This document shows positions 39,111 through 49,335 of a stretch of 64,000 bases of DNA, piece by piece. The notes under the pieces are model-generated. The model saw nothing but the letters and a program-made list of their open reading frames with translations, ran no database searches and had not been told where the DNA came from. A program made the translations under genes and the position numbers. The first letter of the stretch is position 1. Every line of letters begins with the position of its first letter. The stretch spans positions 186,001-250,000 of the forward strand of contig NZ_JAPMLM010000069.1 in assembly GCF_026410195.1 (NCBI RefSeq), given 5' to 3'. Source of the DNA: Xanthomarina sp. F2636L (GTDB lineage: Bacteria; Bacteroidota; Bacteroidia; Flavobacteriales; Flavobacteriaceae).

Positions 39111-39566
39111 TTACAGTTTTAAGTATAAATATTTTTTTTCATAATCTATAATGCCTTTTCCTTTTTTTAAGATATCTGCACCAATTATGCCATCTACAGG
39201 TTGAGAATTATGGCTAACTAAAGCTGTATTTACATGGCTTAAATTAAATAAAATTAAGGCTACTTTGTCTTTTTTCCATTTGCCAATTTTTAATTTATTT
39301 TTTTTAGAAATTTGGGTAAGCATATCTATGGCTCCAGCTCCTGCAGCTTTAATCTCAGAGTCTTTTGCTTTCAGTTTAAAAGTTTCTATAGCATCAAAAC
39401 CTACACAAGAACTGGAAGCTCCCGTGTCTAAAATAAATAAACCCTTAACACCATTTATGGTCGCTTTAATTTCAAAATGATTGGTTTTGGTTAGCTTTAA
39501 TTTAATTTTTGTGTAGCCTTTTTCTAAAAGAAAATCTTTCAGGTTTAGATTAGTAATCTCAGTCAT
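39111..39566 (-). CDS. Retropepsin-like aspartic protease
   Basis: 151 aa starting MTEITNLNLKDF; the ATG overlaps the end of the TPR-CHAT gene by 8 bp (CATGACTGA), which implies translational coupling. An upstream ATG at 39599 lies deeper inside that gene. The catalytic motif is DTGAS at residues 47-51 in LFILDTGASSSCVG, and the second family landmark IIGADIL follows near residue 130, as in single-domain retropepsins that act as dimers. No signal peptide or membrane segment is seen, so it should be cytoplasmic, unlike its coupled partner. Substrate unknown; it may process a component of this locus. Confidence 0.85.
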   Translation of the reverse strand: MTEITNLNLKDFLLEKGYTKIKLKLTKTNHFEIKATINGVKGLFILDTGASSSCVGFDAIETFKLKAKDSEIKAAGAGAIDMLTQISKKNKLKIGKWKKDKVALILFNLSHVNTALVSHNSQPVDGIIGADILKKGKGIIDYEKKYLYLKL

Positions 39567-42132
39567 GGTGTTTTTGTTTTCTAAAGAATAAAAATACAAT
39601 AATTAAAACAACTAAAACTCCAAGGATATAATACATTATTTGGTTTGAATCCTTTTTAGGAACTAGATCTCCATAGTAAACAAACGCGCTCCAATAATAT
39701 GGAGACTTCTTTATATTGCTTATAGATTTATCATTTAAATAATCTAGTTTAGATTGTCTGTTAGCCACGAAAGCTGAATTTATACTTTGATAATTTTTAT
39801 AAAACAAAGTCATTAGCTTAGCTGTAGAGGCATCGTTTATTTGCCATAAGGAATACAAAATATTTTTTGCACCAGCATATTGAAATCCTCTTGCAATACT
39901 CATTGCTCCTTCACCTTTTTGAAGTTTGCCAATCCCTGTTTCACATGCGCTTAAAACTACAAGTTCTGGGTTAATGTTTAAACTGTATAATTCATTTAAT
40001 AGCATGGGTTCATCATAAAAAGCCATACTTGCCGGATTGGTGAAATCGCCACCAGTAGCATGTGTAGAAAGATGTAAAACACCATATTTTACAGCTAAAT
40101 CCATAAAGTTTTGCTTGGTGGCTTCAGCATGCATTAAGATGGTTCCATTGGTTTCTTCTTTGATGGCTAGAGCTTCATCAACCGAATAGCCTAGCATTTG
40201 ATTGCTGTTCTCAAATACAGGAAAAACACCTAAAAGATTTGTGTTTTTTGAAGGGATTTTAGGTTGTAAATAAAATTCGAGACTTGAATTATAACCCACA
40301 GCGTGTTGTGATACCAAAAACGACATTTCCGAAAAATTGCTGCTTTCCGTTTTTTTAGTTAGTAAAGCTTCAAAAGGTATAAAGTTTAATAAACCATCTG
40401 GAATAATAATAAGGTTTTTAGAATTTGAGATGTCTTCCAAATGTAGCAGTTGGTATAAATTATAGGCTTGATTTGAAAAATTCTTAATATTATTATTGAT
40501 TGCTGAAGGGCTATCAAACAAATGAATAAAGTTGGTTAAACTATTTTTTACGGCATCCGTTAAATCTATTTTTAAGAAAGATGTATTTTTTTCTGAAATG
40601 ATAAACTGATAAATAGCCTGCTTTCCATAAAAATAGATTATCAGATTAGTTTTGTCCACCTGAAGCTGTTTTTGAATTCCGGTAACATCTATATTATTTT
40701 CCGTTTGAGGATACTTGAGTTCAATATCTGAATGAAGATTTTTTAAGTCAATACTAAGGTTTAAAAGTTGTTTGTTCAGGCTATCGTTTGTTGATGTTTG
40801 ATAACCTAATTGTGTTTTTATTAGTAAATCTGTTAACTGCTCTTGTTGCTGAAGTAGCTTTTGTTCTTTAATTAATAAACCGTCGTTTGGATGTAGTTCT
40901 AATAATGATTTTTTCTGAAAAACTCCTTTTAAAACGGATGCTTTATATGTCTCTGTATACGCTAAAGCTCGAGTAAAAATTTTTGTATCTGAGTTTTTTT
41001 GATAGGTTTGAAAAAGCAATTCTATACAATGTTCAGATCTATTTCTATTGCTTACTTGATTCGCAATTTTCGACTCTTGGGAGGTTAGATTCTCAGTTAA
41101 TAAATTGGATACATAAAAACTTAAATCGTAATAAATAAGTGCTGTTTCTGGATGGATTTGTAGCCTAGCTAATAAATCAAAGATATCTATAAACGTGTTT
41201 TCTGCATACAACGTCGATTTTTCCGGAATGGTCTTTTCCTCTAAGTTAGGAAGAAACATATGTAAAGCTGATTGTAAACTTTGATTGGCTTTATCAAAAT
41301 TGTTGAGTAAGTATTCTAATTGTCCTTTTTTCAGATAATTTTTAGCAATTTCTCTCTTTGTAAGAGAATCTTTTTCCTGAATTAATGTAGACATATTAAA
41401 ATGCTCTAAAGCCGACGTATAATCGCCGTTTTTTAGAGCCAATTCATATTGCAATAGGTGTTTGTTGTACTGCCCATCTGAAACTGAAAAAATAATATCA
41501 TTTTCTAAATTGTAATTCTTGGATGTATTTAAGGCTATTAAACTAGAAGCTTTAAGCGTGTTTAATTTGTCTTTTTGCTTAGAGTCAATTTTTAGAACTT
41601 CAAGGCTCTGATTTATTAAATCCACAACCAATTGGTGCATCCCACGAGTTTGATACAGCACAGAAAGATTGATTATACCTGCTACATATTGTACCTTATC
41701 TTTCTTCTTTTCAGCTATAGATAAATATTGTTTTATAGTGTTTTCAGCATCAGTATAATTGTTGGTTTTAGTGTATAAATTCCCAAGAGGTTTTAAGCAA
41801 TATTCTATAATGTCATAATCTGAAATGTTGACAAGTTGGTTCTCATTATAATATGTCCAAGCCGTTTCATAGGATGTTATTGCTGGATTAAACCTATTTA
41901 AGTCTTTTAAATAATAGGCTTTGTTACACAACAGGAAAATAAAAGCTAATTGTTCGTCTTTGGTGGAAATTTTATTTTTAAAATTGATTTCCTGTTCACT
42001 TAATTCTTCAAGAGATTCTAAGCTTTTATTTGCTATAAATTTTTCGGTAGCTAAATAAATAGTATCCTCTAAATTCTGCGAAAAGGCAAAATTTCCAATA
42101 CAAAAAAGCAAAAGAAATAGATTTCTTTTCAT
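39559..42132 (-). CDS. Secreted, membrane-anchored TPR-CHAT protease
   Basis: 857 aa. The signal peptide ends NFAFSQ. TPR-like helical repeats fill about residues 25-420 (for example AFYLKDLNRF, KNYTDAENTIKQYLSIAEK, GDYTSALEHFNMSTL). The C-terminal CHAT caspase-like domain (about 560-825) keeps both catalytic residues: His in LHLSTHATGG (near 690) and Cys in VVLSACETG (near 728). A hydrophobic helix at about 832-852 (YYILGVLVVLIIVFLFF) plus a basic tail would anchor it in the inner membrane, with TPR and CHAT parts in the periplasm. CHAT enzymes are cysteine proteases often switched on by partner binding through TPRs. It belongs to a five-gene leftward unit behind an ECF-type promoter. Confidence 0.88.
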   Translation of the reverse strand: MKRNLFLLLFCIGNFAFSQNLEDTIYLATEKFIANKSLESLEELSEQEINFKNKISTKDEQLAFIFLLCNKAYYLKDLNRFNPAITSYETAWTYYNENQLVNISDYDIIEYCLKPLGNLYTKTNNYTDAENTIKQYLSIAEKKKDKVQYVAGIINLSVLYQTRGMHQLVVDLINQSLEVLKIDSKQKDKLNTLKASSLIALNTSKNYNLENDIIFSVSDGQYNKHLLQYELALKNGDYTSALEHFNMSTLIQEKDSLTKREIAKNYLKKGQLEYLLNNFDKANQSLQSALHMFLPNLEEKTIPEKSTLYAENTFIDIFDLLARLQIHPETALIYYDLSFYVSNLLTENLTSQESKIANQVSNRNRSEHCIELLFQTYQKNSDTKIFTRALAYTETYKASVLKGVFQKKSLLELHPNDGLLIKEQKLLQQQEQLTDLLIKTQLGYQTSTNDSLNKQLLNLSIDLKNLHSDIELKYPQTENNIDVTGIQKQLQVDKTNLIIYFYGKQAIYQFIISEKNTSFLKIDLTDAVKNSLTNFIHLFDSPSAINNNIKNFSNQAYNLYQLLHLEDISNSKNLIIIPDGLLNFIPFEALLTKKTESSNFSEMSFLVSQHAVGYNSSLEFYLQPKIPSKNTNLLGVFPVFENSNQMLGYSVDEALAIKEETNGTILMHAEATKQNFMDLAVKYGVLHLSTHATGGDFTNPASMAFYDEPMLLNELYSLNINPELVVLSACETGIGKLQKGEGAMSIARGFQYAGAKNILYSLWQINDASTAKLMTLFYKNYQSINSAFVANRQSKLDYLNDKSISNIKKSPYYWSAFVYYGDLVPKKDSNQIMYYILGVLVVLIIVFLFFRKQKHHD

Positions 42133-42163
42133 AAGAAGCTGCTACAAAATAGATGTTTAGAGT

Positions 42164-44119
42164 TTAAAATTTCCAAATGGCATAGAGTTGCAGATAATTA
42201 AAATTGTCTTTAAAATTTAGCACATAACGGGCGCCCACACTTGGACCAATTCGGGCAAAACCTGCTGTAACTTCAAACAATAAGCCAGTTCTAAAATTGC
42301 TAAAAGCATCTTTGCTTTCACTGCTGATTTCTGAGCTATTCATTAAAAAATCGTCTGAATTACCTTCAAATTGTTCAATTAAAATATCTTGTGTTTGTTT
42401 TTCGCTTAGGGTTATCATGCCTTGCAAGCCAGCACCCAATCCTATATAATTGTTAACGTTGTAGCGCATAAGCACAGGAATTTCCCAATCTACATTTTTA
42501 TAACTTGAATTAGTGGTAGTGCGTTGTAAAAACTCAATTCCTGCAGCTCCTCTTACAAATTCATCTTTAATAAGTGTATTGTCATTGTAGGTATGAAAAC
42601 TGTTTAATAATTCTATTTGCCAATACCAACGATAGGATTTGTAAGGTGAAATAGTGGCGCCTAAAAAATAACTTTCAGAATTGTTTAAGTCTGAAAACAT
42701 GTTATAACCCACTTTGGCACCAATGGAAATACCTGGAACAAATCTTGTCGTGGCATAATTGGTAATAATGGGCTCGTTCTTATCAAAAATAATGGCTGTC
42801 TGACTCTTAGTTTTTTGTTTGTGAAAATCCTTAGCAAACTTAATATTGTACTTTACAAAGCCCTTAGTAGAATCGTAGACTTTTACATTTTTTTGTTCAC
42901 TGCCAGGTAAATAAATGTTTTTAAAAGTAAAAATGGCTTGAGTATCTGTAAAGGTGGTATCCAAGCAGCTATATTGAACTTCTTCTTTTGGACAGATTTC
43001 ACATTTAGGATACATATCTGTAACCTCAATAGTCGATTTGTCCAACATCTCTGGAATATCCGTTTCTAAACGAATGGTTCGTGCTGGACCTTCGCCATTA
43101 TTTTGAAATTTAATTTTATATTTCAAGGTTTTAAAACGTACTAGTCTATAATTCATAAATGTTGCATTACTAGCCATTTTATTAGGGTCATGGGAGGTTA
43201 CAATTTCCATTTCCATGTCTTTCACTTTGTGGTTGTCAAAATTTGCATCTGGTACATAAACTCCTCTAACAGAAATTATGGCGCTCGTATCTTTTAGCAT
43301 TTCTGGTGGTGTTTTTAAGGTGAAAAATAAATTTCTTTCCTCGTTAGGTTCCATATTATTAAACTCAAATTGCTCATAATTCCTATAATAGGCTTTTGAA
43401 GTTTCTAGGGTTAAAGGCAAATTGGTTTTTATAGTAGAATCTTGGGGTTTGACTTTTAAATCTAAATATTCTTTTTCTGCCGAAGCCAATAAGGTATAAT
43501 CAGAATTGTCAATTTTATTAGTGTAAACAAAATCCGTTTTAGGTATATGTATTTCGTTGTGATAGGCTCTTATATCTTCAACATTAAAGTTGTTTGCCTT
43601 GTATTTCTGTTCATTATAAAACAGATATAATTTCCCGTTTGTCGTATAATTTAAATAGTTTTTATAGCTTACAATTAATACCATATCTTCCTCTGGCATG
43701 GGTTCTCTATTGCGCTGAAGAGTGAAATCTTCAGTCATGGAAGCTTCGTCTTTTAATGAAGCATCTGTTTTACTTACCCTAATTTTTTTTGGTCTGGAAT
43801 TAGGAGGTTTGCCAGTGTCGTAATGATTGGTTGCCCAAAGTTTTACTTCGTAATTCCCAGGAGTTTTATAGTTGTGTTTTGGGTTTTCTTCTTTGCTAAA
43901 GCTACCATCATCAAATTCCCAATAATAAGAGTAAAAGGCTTTTGGTGCTCCGGCAATTTGTTCTAAGGCTGGGGTTTCAGGAAAAAACTGGATTACTGAT
44001 CCTTCCTCTTGATGTTTAATAGTTGCAATACGAGAAATTGAATCTTGAGAAGGTGTGTTTTGTGCAAAAAGCCATTGAAAGCAACAGCATAAAAGTATAA
44101 AAGTAAACTTGGTTCTCAT
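42164..44119 (-). CDS. PKD-domain protein with outer-membrane barrel
   Basis: 651 aa from MRTKFTFILLCC; an in-frame ATG at 44155 adds 12 residues ahead of the signal peptide (ends WLFAQ) and is less likely. A PKD domain covers about residues 40-120 (YYWEFDDGSFSKEENPKHNY, then PGNYEVKLWATN). The middle (about 300-440) resembles the DUF11/DUF7619-type surface domain with DPNKMASN and LKYKIKFQNNGEGPARTI. The last 170 residues alternate like an outer-membrane barrel (VPGISIGAKVGYNMFSD ... YLQLYAIWKF). It could be the surface sensor or anchor of the locus. Spacing to the CHAT gene is 31 bp. Confidence 0.75.
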   Translation of the reverse strand: MRTKFTFILLCCCFQWLFAQNTPSQDSISRIATIKHQEEGSVIQFFPETPALEQIAGAPKAFYSYYWEFDDGSFSKEENPKHNYKTPGNYEVKLWATNHYDTGKPPNSRPKKIRVSKTDASLKDEASMTEDFTLQRNREPMPEEDMVLIVSYKNYLNYTTNGKLYLFYNEQKYKANNFNVEDIRAYHNEIHIPKTDFVYTNKIDNSDYTLLASAEKEYLDLKVKPQDSTIKTNLPLTLETSKAYYRNYEQFEFNNMEPNEERNLFFTLKTPPEMLKDTSAIISVRGVYVPDANFDNHKVKDMEMEIVTSHDPNKMASNATFMNYRLVRFKTLKYKIKFQNNGEGPARTIRLETDIPEMLDKSTIEVTDMYPKCEICPKEEVQYSCLDTTFTDTQAIFTFKNIYLPGSEQKNVKVYDSTKGFVKYNIKFAKDFHKQKTKSQTAIIFDKNEPIITNYATTRFVPGISIGAKVGYNMFSDLNNSESYFLGATISPYKSYRWYWQIELLNSFHTYNDNTLIKDEFVRGAAGIEFLQRTTTNSSYKNVDWEIPVLMRYNVNNYIGLGAGLQGMITLSEKQTQDILIEQFEGNSDDFLMNSSEISSESKDAFSNFRTGLLFEVTAGFARIGPSVGARYVLNFKDNFNYLQLYAIWKF

Positions 44120-44154
44120 GATTTTTTGAATAATTAGGTCCTTGCTAAAATACA

Positions 44155-44185
44155 AAAAGCGATGGTTATTACAACCACCGCTTTT
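44155..44185 (-). terminator. Intra-operon terminator or attenuator
   Basis: Read leftward: AAAAGCG, TGGTT, loop, AACCA, CGCTTTTT. It lies between the lipoprotein gene and the PKD-barrel gene and could make the lipoprotein more abundant than the proteins downstream. Confidence 0.6.
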
Positions 44186-44197
44186 CTCAAGGTTAAA

Positions 44198-45241
44198 TTA
44201 AGGCAGATTATTAATTTGTAATATAAGTTCGTTCTCTGTAGCTATAGAAGTCTCAGATAAACTAAAAACTGTAGATCCGTCTGCAGCTATAGTCACTGGT
44301 TTTACGGCATATCTCCAGTTTCCATCCTCTTCTGTTACAAAAATTAAGTGACATTCTAAACCAATTGGGATTTGTCCGTAGTGTTCACTAAATTTCCCTG
44401 AAATCGGATCATAAGCATCCAGTTGTGCAAGTCCAGAATCTTCACCATCATATGATAAATATACGCCACTATTGGTGTTGTTAAAACCTATTGGAACTGT
44501 TACATTAATAGTTGTTTTTGGCCTTGGGTCGTTGTAAAATCTGTCAATATTAGTCCAGCCAAATTGATTAAACATCACGTAATAGTTTGTAGGGTCTGTA
44601 AAAACAGTATTTTCTCCATCTGTACCAGGCTCGGCTTCAGCTTCTTCCCATGCCAGATTTCCATCCTCATCTATGTTGCCATACCAAAGAATCATGGCAT
44701 TATCAGCTCCTCCTGTTAATGCAGTAGGTACTTCTAATTGCATAACACAATTTGTTTCTAATGTAACGCCGTCTTGTGTGGCTTCTAAAAAGAATTCTCC
44801 ACCGGTTAGCAATAAGGCTTTATCTCCGTTTGGCATAATTCCCATAGTAGGTTTGTTTGTAGTAATCATATTTCCTTTTTCAAACACCTCTACGTATTCT
44901 AGGTCTACCATTCCAGTTACAGCATTGCCATTTTTAGTTAAACAGTTTCCATCAATAGAAATACTAACACCATGAGTGGAGGTTAAAGTAATAAAACCGT
45001 CGTCAGCATTAAATTGAAAGTTTTGGGTAATATTTTCTAAAGCTTGGTGTCTAATATTAGAAAACTCCTGAGCTGTTGGTCTATCTGGACCTGATGTAGG
45101 AATATAATTTACATCCTCGTTCGGACTACAGCTGGTAAATATCAAACTAGCCATAAGTGCAGTTCCGAAAAAAGTTTTTAAGGTTTTATTCACCATATTC
45201 AAAGTGTTTGAATTAAGATGAAATTGATTTGTTGTTTTCAT
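44198..45241 (-). CDS. Lipoprotein of the ECF/CHAT locus
   Basis: 347 aa with a lipobox (LIFTSC, Cys near residue 38). An internal ATG at 45196 would give a more usual signal length and is a real alternative. The body is beta-rich with no known motif, in two parts: about 75-200 (DGFITLTSTHGVSISIDG, GMVDLEYVEVFEKGNM) and about 225-347. It is first gene of the leftward unit and lies about 20 bases after the predicted start point of promoter P1. It may be a ligand-binding or signal protein of the locus; function unknown. Confidence 0.72.
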   Translation of the reverse strand: MKTTNQFHLNSNTLNMVNKTLKTFFGTALMASLIFTSCSPNEDVNYIPTSGPDRPTAQEFSNIRHQALENITQNFQFNADDGFITLTSTHGVSISIDGNCLTKNGNAVTGMVDLEYVEVFEKGNMITTNKPTMGIMPNGDKALLLTGGEFFLEATQDGVTLETNCVMQLEVPTALTGGADNAMILWYGNIDEDGNLAWEEAEAEPGTDGENTVFTDPTNYYVMFNQFGWTNIDRFYNDPRPKTTINVTVPIGFNNTNSGVYLSYDGEDSGLAQLDAYDPISGKFSEHYGQIPIGLECHLIFVTEEDGNWRYAVKPVTIAADGSTVFSLSETSIATENELILQINNLP

Positions 45242-45269
45242 AATTAAATAGGTTTTAAATTGTTATTCA

Positions 45270-45303
45270 CCTTTATATAAAACCAAGCTTGTTTTTGTTA
45301 CCC
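45270..45303 (-). promoter_or_regulatory. ECF-type promoter P1
   Basis: Minus strand: GGGTAACA (45303-45296), 17 bp, ATATAAAGG (45278-45270). Same -35 and spacing as P2 and P3. It drives the lipoprotein-PKD-CHAT-retropepsin(-regulator) unit. Confidence 0.6.
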
Positions 45304-45494
45304 TGTTTTTTCATTTAATTTAGAAATTTTAGTTAAAAGAACTTTTTTAAATCTGTTTAATGCTGAAAGCCCTTTTAAATAAAGGATTCTTGTAAATGGT
45401 GTTTTTTTAAACAAAACGTCAGATAATATAAAACATATATTAATTGCTACGTTTTATTATGAAGGATTCTAAATTTTTGAGATGTTATAATGAT
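45304..45494. other. Duplicated spacer upstream of P1
   Basis: No gene seen. The segment aligns in patches with 46301-46468 (for example AAATAAAGGATTCTTG against AAATAAAGATTTTTG), so it is part of a duplicated 3'RNA-plus-promoter module. Confidence 0.5.
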
Positions 45495-45571
45495 AAAAAA
45501 GACCTTTCAAATTAATGAAAGGTCTCCTTTTGCTGAACTACTTCTAATTCAGCTTCTGATTAATAGCAATC
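45495..45571 (-). ncRNA. Candidate 3'-end RNA C
   Basis: Leftward: TTGCTATTAATCAGAA, hairpin GCTGAA / TTCAGC, AAAAGGAG, then a terminator hairpin GACCTTTCA / TGAAAGGTC with a T run. It matches unit D nearly base for base in layout and shares TTGCTATTAAT and the purine box with A, B and E. It lies 75 bp after the lipoprotein stop; no good promoter is seen, so processing from an mRNA is likely. Confidence 0.4.
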
Positions 45572-45645
45572 TTTATTTCTATAGTTGAGAGTATTTTCTC
45601 ATAACTTTATTTTATACACTTTTTTAGCAATCGTTTCTGTTCTTT

Positions 45646-46236
45646 TTAATTCACCTTAAAACCTAAAGGAATATATGGTTGTCCTAAATTTGGTACGGGT
45701 CCTCCAGAACCGTAAAAGTTAGAACTTAAAAACTCAACATTGCCTTGTGTTATTGGATATGGTACATCTGTGAAATCAGATTTTCTTAACACTCTCCCAA
45801 CTGTTTCGTTAAGTGACGTGTTATTTGATATGGTTCTCATAACTTTAATAATATCTCCTGCACTTACAGCAACTGGAGTAATTATTTGGTAGTCTAACTG
45901 TGTTTGTGAAAAAGAATGAGTACCAGAATAAGATGCACTTGAAGTTTCGTTTATTATTTCAATAACATAATCTCCTGTCCAGGAACTTGGATTTTGATAC
46001 CCAACACTGCAAATTTCGCCATCTGCATTTATTTTTATTCGATATTGATGTGTTTTTAAATCCATATACTCTGGTAAGTCGTCATATCCATTTGCTGTGG
46101 AAAAAGCATTTGTTATGGCTGTATTTACATAAGAATCGTCACACACATTGTTTGTCATATCATCGTCATTATCGCAGGATGAAAGGACAAAAAGACTTAT
46201 TACAGATAATATTGCGAATGTTTTAAATTTTTTCAT
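45646..46236 (-). CDS. Small lipoprotein, ECF-regulon candidate
   Basis: 196 aa from MKKFKTFAILS; a second ATG two codons upstream (46242) is equally possible. Lipobox FVLSSC (Cys near residue 20) followed by DNDDD, the acidic stretch often linked with surface export of Bacteroidota lipoproteins. The rest is beta-rich (YQNPSSWTGDYVIEIINE) with no known domain. Behind promoter P2. Confidence 0.72.
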   Translation of the reverse strand: MKKFKTFAILSVISLFVLSSCDNDDDMTNNVCDDSYVNTAITNAFSTANGYDDLPEYMDLKTHQYRIKINADGEICSVGYQNPSSWTGDYVIEIINETSSASYSGTHSFSQTQLDYQIITPVAVSAGDIIKVMRTISNNTSLNETVGRVLRKSDFTDVPYPITQGNVEFLSSNFYGSGGPVPNLGQPYIPLGFKVN

Positions 46237-46267
46237 AATCATTGTTCTTTAAATTGGTTTCTAACAA

Positions 46268-46300
46268 CCTTATATCAATATGCTTTTAAAATTGTTACCC
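46268..46300 (-). promoter_or_regulatory. ECF-type promoter P2
   Basis: Minus strand: GGGTAACA (46300-46293), 17 bp, ATATAAGG (46275-46268). The core and flanks are nearly identical to P3 over about 35 bp. Confidence 0.65.
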
Positions 46301-46468
46301 GTTTTTTAAATTTTATTTTTAATATTTTAAATGAAGGGTTTCTGAAAAATTATTTTAAGTTGAAAACCTTAATAAATAAAGATTTTTGCCGAATAATATG
46401 TTTTAGAAAGACTGATATTTTTTTGCCACGATGACGTATCTCAAATTTTTGGGATACTTGATTTAAGC
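46301..46468. other. Duplicated spacer upstream of P2
   Basis: No gene seen. It holds a short inverted repeat (GTATCTCA / TTGGGATAC, 46438-46459) and patches of similarity to 45304-45494. Confidence 0.5.
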
Positions 46469-46547
46469 AAAAAAAAGACCTTTCAAATGAATGAAAGGTC
46501 CCTTTTCACTGAATCATTATTAATAATTCAGTTCCCGATTAATAGCA
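46469..46547 (-). ncRNA. Candidate 3'-UTR RNA D
   Basis: Leftward: TTGCTATTAATCGGGAA, hairpin CTGAAT / ATTCAG, AAAAGGGA, then terminator hairpin GACCTTTCA / TGAAAGGTC with eight T. It begins right at the stop codon of the gene at 46552, so it is the 3' UTR of that mRNA and possibly a processed RNA. Confidence 0.45.
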
Positions 46548-46551
46548 ATCT

Positions 46552-47028
46552 TTATTTCTTTAGTTTGGCTTTTTTTCTTGGGCTTTTTTCAACCGTACCA
46601 CTTATAATAACTTTTGAGGTAATAATTTCGCCTTTTGCTACAAGTTTTATCATTTTGTTGGCATCATCTTCAGAAGATGAAAATCCTTTAGCATAACCAA
46701 AACTGCTTTCTACTTCCCAAAAATATAACCTATTGTTATTGTCTTCAGCTTCATAGTTTAACATATAAAAGCTTTCAATTTTTTTCTCTAACACAACTTC
46801 TCCAGAACTCACAAGAGAAATCATTCTATTGGCATGAATTAAATCTGGCGAGGTACCTGAATAACTATTCTTGTTAGTTGTTACTGTCCAATCAAATATT
46901 TGGACTAGATGTTCTTTTGCAATTGTTACAACTTCATTAGAAGTGTTTACTATTACTTTTTTGTCTGTAGCATTAACTTGCATTATTGATAAGGCTACTA
47001 CTGCGATAATTATTAGTGAATGTCTCAT
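46552..47028 (-). CDS. Secreted protein with a duplicated motif
   Basis: 158 aa; signal peptide MRHSLIIIAVVALSIMQVNA. Two internal repeats are visible: HANRMISLVSSGEVVLEKK (about residues 66-84) and DANKMIKLVAKGEIITSK (about 122-139), each preceded by a strand-rich segment. The tail is very basic (KSPRKKAKLKK). No known family recognised. It is divergent from the ECF sigma gene, directly behind promoter P3, and so likely the nearest ECF target. Confidence 0.72.
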   Translation of the reverse strand: MRHSLIIIAVVALSIMQVNATDKKVIVNTSNEVVTIAKEHLVQIFDWTVTTNKNSYSGTSPDLIHANRMISLVSSGEVVLEKKIESFYMLNYEAEDNNNRLYFWEVESSFGYAKGFSSSEDDANKMIKLVAKGEIITSKVIISGTVEKSPRKKAKLKK

Positions 47029-47089
47029 AACTAAAAATTTTAATGGATTAATATTCTTTTTAGTGTTTCGCGTTTTTTTGCGCTTACAA

Positions 47090-47122
47090 CCTTATATCAA
47101 TATCCTTTTAAAATTGTTACCC
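47090..47122 (-). promoter_or_regulatory. ECF-type promoter P3
   Basis: Minus strand: GGGTAACA (47122-47115), 17 bp, ATATAAGG (47097-47090). It lies between the divergent target gene and the sigma factor gene. Confidence 0.65.
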
Positions 47123-47166
47123 TTATTATGCGAAGTTTTTTTAAATTCGTTAAAAATAAAGGGTTT

Positions 47167-47748
47167 ATGAGCCAAAAGAAAATTCACGAAGATCAGAAGT
47201 ACATAGTTGGTTTGGTTGAAAACAATGCGTTTATAATTCAGGCTATTTACGATAAGTTTGCGCCAAAGGTTATTAATTACATCAAGCAAAATAGTGGAGA
47301 TGTTTCCAGTGCCCAAGATATTATTCAAGAAACCATTATCACGATATATAATCAAGCCATAGAGAAAGATTTAAAACTTACTTGTCCGTTCGATGCCTAT
47401 TTTTTCTTACTCTGTAAACGCAAATGGCTCAATCAGTTAAAAAAAACTGGTAATAAAGAGGTAACAATTAATGAGGAAGTGTTATCTAAAGATGACGACG
47501 CTCAAGAACTCGCTTTTGAAACCTCTTTATTTGAACAACAACACAGTTTATATAAGGACATGTTTGAAAAACTCGGACAGGCTTGTAAAGATCTCTTAAA
47601 AGCGACTTTTAAGATTAAATCCATGGAAGAAGTTGCTAAAAGTTTAGGTGTAACTTATGCCTATGCAAGAAAAAAGAAATCTTTATGTATTGGACAGTTA
47701 ACCAAATGGATTCAAGAGTCACCAACTTTTAAAAACCTAAAATCTTAA
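47167..47748 (+). CDS. ECF-type RNA polymerase sigma factor
   Basis: 193 aa from MSQKKIHEDQKYIV, preceded by AAAGGG; an in-frame ATG at 47128 would add 13 residues and would almost abut P3. Region 2 (about residues 15-85) has AQDIIQETIITIYNQ and the core-binding helix. Region 4 (about 130-185) has CKDLLKATFKIKSMEEVAK and VTYAYARKKKSLCIGQL, the -35-recognition helix-turn-helix. It is followed after 2 bp by its probable anti-sigma gene. Likely targets are P1-P3 on the opposite strand; no GGGTAACA site was seen ahead of the sigma gene itself. Confidence 0.92.
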   Translation: MSQKKIHEDQKYIVGLVENNAFIIQAIYDKFAPKVINYIKQNSGDVSSAQDIIQETIITIYNQAIEKDLKLTCPFDAYFFLLCKRKWLNQLKKTGNKEVTINEEVLSKDDDAQELAFETSLFEQQHSLYKDMFEKLGQACKDLLKATFKIKSMEEVAKSLGVTYAYARKKKSLCIGQLTKWIQESPTFKNLKS

Positions 47749-47750
47749 CC

Positions 47751-48488
47751 ATGCAAGAACAAGATTACATACTATTTGAAGATTATCTGTCTGGAGCTTT
47801 AGATGCAGTAGAAATAGTAGCTTTTGAAAATAGATTGCAAAACGATTTAGAATTTAATAAAGCTTATAAAACTTATGTTCATGCTTCTAAATTTTTAGAA
47901 ACACATTTAGAAAATGAAGAAAAACAGAAGGCCTTTAAAGCAAATCTAGAATCTGTTTCATCCAAGTATTTTGCTAAAGAAGAATCTTCTAAAATAAGGT
48001 TTAAAGGAATCAATCCGTGGTATTATTCTTTAGCTGCTGCAGCTATTTTAGTCATCGGATTTTTCTTTGCACAACAATTTTCAAATCCGGTTTATGGAGA
48101 TTATGCCAATTACGGCACGATTAGTTTAACTGTTAGAGGACAACAAAGTGAGGTTTTGAGCAAAGCAGAAACAGCCTTTAATAGTCGCAATTACAAAGAG
48201 GCTGAAACGTATTTTTCACAAGCACTTAAAACAGATACCAATAATATGGAATTACAATTATATAGAGCAGTATCTTTAGTAGAATTAAATAATTACAACG
48301 AAGCAGATGCGCTTTTCGATGATATCATCCAAACGCCTTCTGTTTATAAAAATAAAGCCATTTGGTATTTAGCTTTGAGTAAATTAAAACAAGGAGACGA
48401 TGCAGCTAGTATAAATGTATTGAAAACCCTGCCTAAAGATTCTGAAGACTTCAAAGAAGCACAGAAACTTATTAATAAGTTGAAATAA
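47751..48488 (+). CDS. One-TM anti-sigma-like protein with periplasmic TPR
   Basis: 245 aa. The cytoplasmic N-terminus (about residues 1-85: YILFEDYLSGALDAVEIVAF and ENRLQNDLEFNKAY) has the form of the sigma-binding domains found beside Bacteroidota ECF factors. A single membrane helix follows at about 92-108 (YYSLAAAAILVIGFFFA). The periplasmic part (about 130-245) has TPR repeats (AETAFNSRNYKEAETYFSQA, LVELNNYNEADALFDD). It should hold the sigma factor at the membrane until a periplasmic signal or protease acts. The periplasmic TPR is a plausible docking partner for the TPR-CHAT protease. Function is inferred from layout and context. Confidence 0.8.
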   Translation: MQEQDYILFEDYLSGALDAVEIVAFENRLQNDLEFNKAYKTYVHASKFLETHLENEEKQKAFKANLESVSSKYFAKEESSKIRFKGINPWYYSLAAAAILVIGFFFAQQFSNPVYGDYANYGTISLTVRGQQSEVLSKAETAFNSRNYKEAETYFSQALKTDTNNMELQLYRAVSLVELNNYNEADALFDDIIQTPSVYKNKAIWYLALSKLKQGDDAASINVLKTLPKDSEDFKEAQKLINKLK

Positions 48489-48567: not shown

Positions 48568-49335
48568 ATGACAATTACCGATACACATACCCATTTATAT
48601 AGCGATGCTTTTGACGAGGATAGAAAAGACATGATTCAAAGAGCAATAGATGTAGGAGTCTCTCGCTTTTTTATTCCAGCAATCGACTCGTCTTATACAG
48701 ATGCGATGCTTCTGTTGGAAGCCGATTTTCCTAAAAATGTTTTTTTAATGACTGGGTTGCATCCAACCTCAGTTAAAGAAAATTATTTAAAAGAACTTGC
48801 TCATGTGGAAGAATTGCTAGCTGAACGCTCATTTTATGCCATTGGAGAAATTGGAATAGACTTGTATTGGGACACCTCTACCTTAGAAATTCAAAAGAAA
48901 GCCTTTAAACATCAAATACAATTGGCTAAAAAATATAAACTCCCTATCGTAATTCATTGTCGCGAAGCTTTCGATGAAATTTTTGATGTTTTAGAAGAAG
49001 AAAAAAGTGAAGATCTATTCGGAATCTTTCATTGTTTTACTGGTACATTGGAACAGGCAAAACGCGCTATTTCCTTTAATATGAAATTAGGTATTGGAGG
49101 CGTGGTGACGTTTAAAAATGGTAAAATAGATCAGTTTATCAATCAAATCGATTTAAAACATATTGTTTTGGAAACCGATTCGCCCTATTTAGCACCAAAA
49201 CCATTTAGAGGCAAACGCAATGAAAGTAGTTATATAATAAAGGTCTTAGAAAAACTATCGGAACTTTATAAGTTACCTCAGGAAAATATTGCCGAAATTA
49301 CTACTCAAAATTCAAAAGACGTTTTTAATATATAA
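48568..49335 (+). CDS. tatD: TatD-family metal-dependent DNase
   Basis: A 255-aa TIM-barrel hydrolase. Metal ligands are visible: DTHTHLYSDAF at the N-terminus, AIGEIGIDLYWD with the Glu, VIHCREAFDE, FHCFTG, and the C-terminal ETDSPYLAPKPFRGKRNE. The family acts as 3'-5' exonuclease or deoxyribonuclease in DNA repair. It is followed 2 bp later by the asparaginase gene, so the two are co-transcribed. Confidence 0.94.
   Translation: MTITDTHTHLYSDAFDEDRKDMIQRAIDVGVSRFFIPAIDSSYTDAMLLLEADFPKNVFLMTGLHPTSVKENYLKELAHVEELLAERSFYAIGEIGIDLYWDTSTLEIQKKAFKHQIQLAKKYKLPIVIHCREAFDEIFDVLEEEKSEDLFGIFHCFTGTLEQAKRAISFNMKLGIGGVVTFKNGKIDQFINQIDLKHIVLETDSPYLAPKPFRGKRNESSYIIKVLEKLSELYKLPQENIAEITTQNSKDVFNI

Follow-up and report, generated by a model that had tools for sequence, protein, structure and literature searches.

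A membrane-anchored TPR-CHAT protein beside an ECF sigma factor and an anti-sigma-like protein in Xanthomarina: a candidate site-1 protease

Which protein might a CHAT protease cut when its gene neighbors that of an extracytoplasmic function (ECF) sigma factor? The question is raised by a locus of Xanthomarina sp. F2636L (Bacteroidota; Flavobacteriaceae), which we analyzed in a stretch of 64,000 nucleotides from contig NZ_JAPMLM010000069.1 (positions 186,001 to 250,000; the window in what follows). Here, the gene for a tetratricopeptide repeat (TPR)-CHAT protein lies on the minus strand, and the genes for an ECF sigma factor and for ASF, an anti-sigma-like TPR protein with one transmembrane (TM) helix, lie on the plus strand. 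We favor, with moderate confidence, a reading in which the CHAT protein is the site-1 protease for the neighboring anti-sigma, cutting its linker after Arg129 as part of a feedback envelope circuit. The features that bear on this reading are listed below. Fractions of 45 refer to type-A and type-A-like loci, which were hand-picked from those fetched; labels with G and L denote the compared genomes and loci (G000 is the genome of the window).

47167–47748, plus strand: ECF sigma factor (TIGR02937, 46.6 bits, cut-off 42.9; in 43/45 loci)
47751–48488, plus strand: ASF, one-TM TPR anti-sigma-like protein (TPR matches; AlphaFold2 model; position after the ECF gene; in 42/45 loci)
48135–48140, plus strand: codons of ASF Arg129–Gly130, the predicted CHAT cleavage site (linker conservation; coupling to CHAT Glu653 and Asp767)
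39559–42132, minus strand: TPR-CHAT protease with signal peptide and C-terminal TM helix 831–856 (PF12770; AlphaFold2 model; PDB match; in 45/45 loci)
40060–40062, minus strand: CHAT catalytic His691 (His in 152/153 aligned CHATs, a gap in the other)
39943–39945, minus strand: CHAT catalytic Cys730 (Cys in 152/153 aligned CHATs, a gap in the other)
40174–40176, minus strand: CHAT Glu653, the α1 acid of the predicted S1 pocket, in helix 648–660 (coupling with ASF Arg129)
39832–39834, minus strand: CHAT Asp767 (Cys+37, in LWQIND), the L5 acid of the predicted S1 pocket, in a loop (coupling with ASF Arg129)

The trio of sigma factor, ASF and CHAT

The CHAT domain matches PF12770 (156.5 bits, cut-off 24; E 1.4e-45), and TPRs are found in the same protein. 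Its N-terminus is hydrophobic, and an AlphaFold2 (AF2) model (mean predicted local distance difference test score (pLDDT) 88.9; predicted template modeling score (pTM) 0.87) contains the C-terminal helix 831–856, in agreement with the signal peptide and the C-terminal anchor read by the initial annotation of this DNA; the His and Cys motifs noted there are present as well. The catalytic dyad of His691 and Cys730 is set in a Csx29/separase-like fold (PDB matches 8eey_B and 7nj1_A). The top PDB match of the model is 8eey_B, a chain of the Cas7-11/Csx29/Csx30 complex (E 3.1e-15) whose identity as Csx29 was taken from its length; ranked below it are further TPR-CHATs of Craspase, followed by DdvA (an anti-sigma) and human separase; SAVED-CHAT comes lower still. 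Searches with phmmer of the CHAT domain and of one type-B CHAT against solved structures gave no match. By profile, dyad and fold, the protein is a CHAT peptidase, with proteolytic activity being predicted.

The ECF open reading frame (ORF) opens at 47128, and its start was taken as the ATG at 47167, as in the 193-aa relatives. The downstream ASF gene is on the same strand as the ECF gene in 119/120 cases, with at most 20 bp between the two in 111/119. The ASF model (AF2; mean pLDDT 84.1, pTM 0.57) displays helices at 3–79, a TM helix at 90–111, a linker at 112–132 and a TPR domain at 133–244; within the linker, a brief turn at 115–117 is followed by an irregular stretch from 118 to 132, with the TPR helices starting at 133. 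It thus has the traits of a membrane anti-sigma, namely an N-terminal helical domain, one TM helix and a gene directly after that of an ECF sigma, in keeping with the sigma factor and one-TM TPR protein noted at the outset. The best structure matches of the ASF model are generic TPR domains, and a Pfam scan of ASF returned no anti-sigma model among its matches. From its architecture and gene position, we take ASF to be a membrane anti-sigma-like protein that would bind and inhibit the sigma factor, presumably through helices 3–79 on the cytoplasmic side. The TM order suggests that its C-terminal part is periplasmic, and the signal peptide and TM order of CHAT suggest the same for the CHAT domain, a topology at which the initial annotation arrived likewise.

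To survey the linkage of these genes, 61 loci around CHAT matches (the window, L031–L050 and L081–L120) were scanned with profiles built for this analysis. Added to these were the best 80 of 579 named Bacteroidota loci, a class sample of 40 loci (a single CHAT per genome, for 40 genomes taken by score among the 86 positive ones; G255, G341 and G355 left out) and 19 further loci, with 212 CHATs scored altogether. The CHAT counts omit proteins shorter than 500 aa and those whose match to our CHAT profile was weaker than 1e-40; this removed, among others, L105 (the 1789-aa CHAT in G020), L177, L187 and the broken L043. In the window genome and its relatives, an ASF lies within 9 kb of 51/55 CHATs with a TM tail and of 0/10 without one. 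Over all 212 CHATs, the corresponding values are 118/160 and 5/52; these totals are biased to this CHAT family because the 80 named loci were chosen by similarity to it. In the class sample they are 4/6 and 2/34, and 32/40 CHATs have neither tail nor ASF. The co-occurrence in other Bacteroidota that the initial annotation had proposed to survey therefore extends far beyond close relatives.

A reverse search with the ASF profile, which was made from CHAT-linked ASFs and so favors them, yielded 17 full-length matches in 30 genomes, 16 of them at CHAT loci; thereafter, matches drop to 1.6e-11 and are partial, mostly within longer proteins. The 21 genomes with no known TM-tailed CHAT (including G020, with one distant CHAT of unchecked tail) contain a single full-length ASF, in G010. 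Across 115 trios, ASF lies opposite and upstream of CHAT in 63, opposite and downstream in 34, on the same strand upstream in 17 and on the same strand downstream in one. Since gene orientation varies between loci, the linkage is not that of one inherited operon. The ECF/ASF/CHAT trio occurs in several Bacteroidota families and in at least three arrangements, and the TPR-CHAT gene thus belongs to a conserved unit of ECF sigma, ASF and TM-anchored CHAT.

The window genome itself has 21 sigma70-ECF matches over the cut-off in 3.37 Mb, and each of its five TM-tailed CHATs lies no more than 5 kb from an ECF gene, four of the 21 being involved, which is more than chance would give. Three further ECF/ASF/CHAT loci lie outside the window (L044, L045 and L096, on C65 and C66); at L045, two CHAT genes lie beside one ECF/ASF pair. 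The sixth CHAT (L103) is tail-less, and the 17.5 kb fetched for it contain neither an ECF nor an ASF gene. Elsewhere, L089 (G004:C3) features four tandem tail-less CHAT genes, with no ECF or anti-sigma in 19.9 kb. Beside the trios of L090 and L181, we noted by eye runs of small lipoprotein-like genes, some of them at L090 with collagen-like GP repeats. A Pfam scan of nine neighbor proteins of other trios found no shared effector.

The linker arginine and the predicted S1 pocket

The Arg129 column of ASF (weighted frequency 0.80) has an entropy of 1.12, the lowest in the linker and the 10th of 152 columns; elsewhere between 112 and 138, column entropies range from 1.28 to 3.56. The column after it is mostly Gly and often Ser, and the position falls 17 to 32 residues past the TM end (median 24.5). 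We also computed the coupling of 414 CHAT with 152 ASF columns (62,928 pairs). By normalized mutual information with average product correction (NMI-APC), Glu653–Arg129 ranks first and Asp767–Arg129 second. The Glu653 signal is carried by the type-C group (Leu/Ile), L180 (Leu) and L112, L176, L178 and L342 (Asp). The initial annotation had suggested that CHAT may cut the TPR part of the anti-sigma or another locus protein; a cut in this protein fits the residue covariation, but the likely site is Arg129–Gly130 in the linker rather than the TPR part.

In the CHAT model, Glu653 is in the helix after β1 (strand 633–637), and Asp767 is in the loop after β5, between strand 757–761 and helix 768–784. 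In clan CD peptidases, specificity for P1 (the residue before the cut) is assigned to α1/L1, L4 and L5 (PMC4357240), and Glu917 and Asp1082 of Caenorhabditis elegans separase were modeled as holding the P1 Arg (PMC4626109). Both CHAT acids thus lie in regions setting P1 specificity, with a predicted role in the S1 pocket.

One ASF group, type C, has Thr-Met-Ser at the Arg129 site. Ahead of any view of the CHAT alignment, it was predicted that CHATs whose ASF is without Arg should differ at the Asp767 position. In the alignment, the Thr-Met-Ser group has Glu at Cys+37, and all remaining anti-sigma-linked CHATs but L112 have Asp. Among the 118 TM-tailed pairs, Asp767 goes with Arg in 95, with Lys, Asn and Met in one each, with Ser in two and with a gap in two; Glu goes with Met in 10, Lys in three, Leu in one and Arg in one; and Pro goes with Leu in one. 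By alignment, L092 is counted here as Arg, although by eye the site can be read as Lys; for L195 and L198, the true site is possibly the Leu just before the aligned Ser. Leaving out the two gap rows (116 pairs), Glu653, Asp767 and Arg occur together in 95, and Glu653 is present in all 96 pairs with Arg. A Fisher test on 103 pairs, with ancestry ignored, gave 5.6e-13.

Could the linker Arg be kept for another reason, such as TPR-adjacent folding or a different protease, with the covariation reflecting shared ancestry? On a tree of 112 pairs (the 116 minus four sharing an ASF with a nearer CHAT), there are six S1 and seven P1 changes, too few for significance, and exceptions to the Asp767–Arg matching exist, as this explanation would have it. 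It must also accommodate the joint presence of the three residues in 95/116 pairs, the fact that Arg is never found without Glu653 and the 16 pairs with a non-Asp residue at 767, of which 15 are without Arg, although nine of these are one type-C group. We regard it as somewhat doubtful. That CHAT regulates the anti-sigma by binding alone, TPR to TPR and with no cut, appears quite improbable to us. Both proteins do have TPR domains, and the top pair by mutual information with average product correction (MI-APC), CHAT Lys407 with ASF Leu136, is outside the catalytic domain; against this stand the retention of the catalytic His and Cys in all aligned CHATs but the gapped one and the conservation of an Arg within an otherwise variable, irregular linker.

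Several further observations weigh against cleavage of ASF by CHAT at Arg129, as does the first place of Lys407–Leu136. With regard to the proteins themselves, TM-scores of the CHAT model against 8eey_B are just 0.41–0.47, and the NCBIfam anti-sigma model NF052375 matches ASF weakly (E 0.0045; 17 bits, cut-off 100), for which reason the "anti-sigma" label rests on architecture and gene position. With regard to linkage, an ASF within 9 kb is missing for 42/160 TM-tailed CHATs, and for 26/140 when CHATs within 1.5 kb of the end of a fetched stretch are excluded. As for the coupling, Asp767–Arg129 is just 19th by MI-APC and 8th by raw NMI. By residue spacing, Asp767 presumably lies about four residues before the separase acid, and its pocket role is therefore assigned by region only. 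On the tree, three supported independent pairs gave a mean of 2.7 changing the same way, 0 the other way and 0.3 with no difference (median p 0.25). The matching is also broken in individual loci: L343 has Glu at 767 and L363 has Ser at +37 with Glu at +36, yet both have Arg in the ASF, and Asp767 occurs without an ASF Arg in L106, L180, L195, L198 and L205. Finally, the prediction for seven CHATs with odd S1 residues was scorable in one and failed there (L363 keeps Arg); three with Gly/Gln are ASF-less in the fetched stretches, and three are at contig ends or have the linker outside the piece.

Among TM-tailed CHATs, we also observed that L354, L366 and L373 (G149) have lost both predicted S1 acids (Gln, Gly), with no anti-sigma gene in the fetched stretches, and that L331 and L337 (G408, G149) have Ala at the S1 position, with no ASF in the fetched stretch.

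The cassette, its promoter and its edges

Between CHAT and the sigma gene, and at the two edges of this region, lie the following:

42164–44122, minus strand: PKD_4, DUF7619 and DUF7849 protein, upstream of CHAT (Pfam matches; in 45/45 loci)
44198–45241, minus strand: 347-aa lipoprotein-like protein, LIPO347 (read by eye; in 41/45 loci)
45646–46242, minus strand: 198-aa lipoprotein-like protein (read by eye; in 3/45 loci)
46552–47028, minus strand: 158-aa secreted-looking protein with two imperfect repeats (by eye; in 16/45 loci)
47091–47121, minus strand: candidate ECF-type promoter, 31 nt, upstream of the 158-aa gene (GGTAACA-N17-ATATAAG)
46269–46299, minus strand: candidate ECF-type promoter, 31 nt, upstream of the 198-aa gene (GGTAACA-N17-ATATAAG)
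45272–45302, minus strand: candidate ECF-type promoter, 31 nt, upstream of the 347-aa–PKD–CHAT run (GGTAACA-N17-ATATAAG)
39111–39566, minus strand: retropepsin-like gene, a flanking core gene (Asp_protease_2, 7.8e-11; in 88/149 relatives)
48568–49335, plus strand: TatD nuclease, the core gene at the other cassette edge (profile match; adjoins the retropepsin in a congener without the cassette; in 33/45 loci)

All six genes from the 158-aa protein to the retropepsin are thus on the minus strand, opposite to ECF and ASF; the PKD protein, the two lipoproteins, the secreted repeat protein and the retropepsin had been recognized in the initial annotation and recur here. In the 12-locus comparison, which took loci with a full-length CHAT orthologue plus one broken locus (L043), LIPO347, PKD and CHAT were each found in 12/12, and ECF and ASF in 11/12, the twelfth contig beginning within the cassette. 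To the initial annotation, our analysis adds the three ECF-type promoter copies, a cassette boundary that excludes the retropepsin and the three further trio loci.

A 31-nt form GGTAAC-N-TATAA is present upstream of cassette genes in 12/13 type-A loci, the exception being L040. The exact pattern GGTAACA-N17-ATATAAR has three matches in the 3.37-Mb window genome, all at this locus, and is present in 12/13 genomes with the cassette against 0/7 without it. Of its 31 matches in 20 genomes, 20 are at cassette genes, one is inside an ECF ORF and eight are elsewhere, with the remaining two on contig C32 of G005. The reversed pattern, used as a control, gave eight matches over the 20 genomes (0 to 2 per genome); matches outside the locus are therefore at background level. 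Chance as the source of the three copies was ruled out by the confinement to the cassette as compared to this control. A site is close upstream of an ORF in 29/45 loci, and Flavobacterium and more distant loci are often without the exact form; it was not found at the CHAT and ECF genes of other trio types. Given that the three copies are confined to the locus, the sigma factor probably drives its own cassette, for which this is the candidate promoter.

The same promoter might be taken to place CHAT among the outputs of the sigma factor, where it would cut surface or secreted proteins while another protease releases the ECF. The CHAT gene is indeed downstream of a promoter with all its exact matches in the window genome at the sigma locus, and the short gaps in the 347-aa–PKD–CHAT run suggest one operon. 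We nevertheless consider this unlikely, as it leaves unexplained the retention of the trio in arrangements with CHAT abutting the ASF gene, the near-absence of full-length ASF where no TM-tailed CHAT is known and the Arg129 coupling.

If CHAT is instead the site-1 protease of ASF, the circuit might run as follows. The cytoplasmic domain of ASF would tether the ECF sigma at the membrane, and the exported TPR-CHAT would be anchored in the inner membrane via its C-terminal helix. CHAT may sense an envelope cue, either through its own TPRs or when touching those of ASF, and would then cut ASF after Arg129, at a point of the linker close to the outer face of this membrane. Additional proteolysis would free the sigma, which could transcribe its own cassette from GGTAACA-N17-ATATAAR, raising the surface lipoproteins, the PKD protein and CHAT (positive feedback). 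Such a circuit would feed back on itself because the CHAT gene is probably in the regulon of the sigma.

The retropepsin had been given a possible role on the cytoplasmic side by the initial annotation, and the same protein might finish the degradation of the anti-sigma there. Its gene overlaps that of CHAT by 8 bp (39559–39566), as had been noted, and it is present at 36/45 loci. This is a core family gene, found in 88/149 relatives as opposed to 13/149 with a full-length CHAT orthologue (window genome included). In the congener G002, which has no CHAT match and no full-length ASF, it directly adjoins TatD. It is present in 10/12 compared loci, but missing beside the intact cassettes L040 and L042, and kept in the decayed loci L043 and L385. 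We therefore find a part for it in the pathway highly improbable, and it was ruled out as a circuit member, being widespread, present without the cassette and absent beside some intact cassettes. In our reading, the retropepsin and the response regulator beyond it (in 18/45 loci) flank the site of insertion, and the cassette ends at the 8-bp overlap.

Two decayed loci bear on the trio. In G057 (L043), two C-terminal CHAT pieces, split by a stop, remain beside an intact retropepsin, with no ECF, ASF, PKD or lipoprotein match left at the locus. In G010, the ECF is an 81-aa ORF, ASF and the retropepsin are kept, and no CHAT or PKD was found in the 7 kb read. CHAT loss accompanies loss of an intact sigma gene in both, in assemblies that are 88% and 80% complete, respectively. 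The response regulator beside the broken CHAT of L043 (G057:C96) is also in two ORF pieces.

The locus had been described as CRISPR-free, which agrees with our finding no CRISPR-like array in 36–52 kb of the window and, with PADLOC, no CRISPR protein among eight locus proteins. What PADLOC did report was a weak TPR match for CHAT and, for the retropepsin, PDC-M08B twice (6.5e-08 and 3.3e-07), with no link to defense among the eight.

Comparison with known systems

More tentatively, and with somewhat less confidence than an even chance would warrant, the trio may reflect Bacteroidota-wide envelope signaling, in which separase-like proteases would sense the cue and also make the site-1 cut in ECF anti-sigmas. 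Where a genome has several copies, these would be insulated from one another by matched P1 and S1 (Arg where the pocket has Glu/Asp; Met, Lys or Leu where the pocket is altered), and the CRISPR Csx29 system would be one branch recruited from this older switch. If true, this would identify a natural substrate, at the level of the residue, for bacterial caspase relatives that form a large unassigned family; a separase-like protease would then act as a periplasmic site-1 protease, and the CRISPR Csx29/Csx30/sigma circuit would have a possible origin.

Parts of this picture are already in print: CHAT with an ECF sigma (ECF54, Csx29), metacaspase with a sigma factor and the DdvA anti-sigma of similar fold. 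Among the literature matches listed, there is no Bacteroidota CHAT/ECF/anti-sigma trio, although the 2021 ECF classification and the DdvA papers, which lie outside these matches, may already list such a group; nor do those matches describe P1/S1 matching, a predicted site of cleavage or, across Bacteroidota, the pairing of a separate membrane-anchored CHAT with a TPR anti-sigma that has one TM helix. DegS, a trypsin-like serine protease that carries a PDZ domain, has a fold unrelated to that of the present protease. The DegS/RseA system nonetheless resembles the proposed circuit in that a protease sensing envelope stress cuts the anti-sigma (PMC10028731).

In the ECF54 group, caspase HetF (CHAT) proteins likewise neighbor the ECF sigma gene, and the group is described as acting without an anti-sigma (PMC8999054). 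Metacaspase operons with sigma-70 genes in Myxococcus, Anaeromyxobacter, Haliangium, Sorangium, Ralstonia and Fibrobacter share the combination of a caspase homologue and a sigma factor; they differ in coding for a peptidase C14 rather than CHAT, and the section describing them names no anti-sigma or cleavage site (PMC3501461). In the CalpL/CalpT/CalpS system, the anti-sigma that binds the ECF sigma is likewise cut by a protease (PMC11417357), but this is a Lon-type protease with a SAVED domain, cA4-responsive and CRISPR-linked.

The structure of DdvA (8rot_A) matches the present CHAT (Foldseek E 2.3e-10). DdvA is one large protein with an anti-sigma domain, a TM segment, TPRs and a caspase fold, whereas here the corresponding parts are in two separate genes (39559–42132, minus strand; 47751–48488, plus strand). 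In the DdvA/DdvS pair of Myxococcus xanthus, it acts as the transmembrane anti-sigma for the ECF sigma (PMC12288465, PMC4374960).

Closest in fold is the type III-E Craspase, in which the TPR-CHAT Csx29 cuts the inhibitor restraining the ECF-like CASP-sigma, the cut in Csx30 lying between residues 427 and 429 (PMC10028731). The acid D2151 of separase is replaced by K670 in Craspase, for which a cut of Csx30 after Leu407 is given (PMC9729208), a swap that might be seen as a parallel to the P1/S1 switching suggested here. The proposed circuit would share with it a TPR-CHAT protease that cuts a sigma inhibitor, and 8eey_B of Craspase is the best fold match. Unlike Craspase, which is switched on by target RNA through Cas7-11, the present CHAT comes with no CRISPR array in the 36–52 kb scanned, and features a signal peptide, a C-terminal TM helix and a one-TM TPR anti-sigma-like partner.

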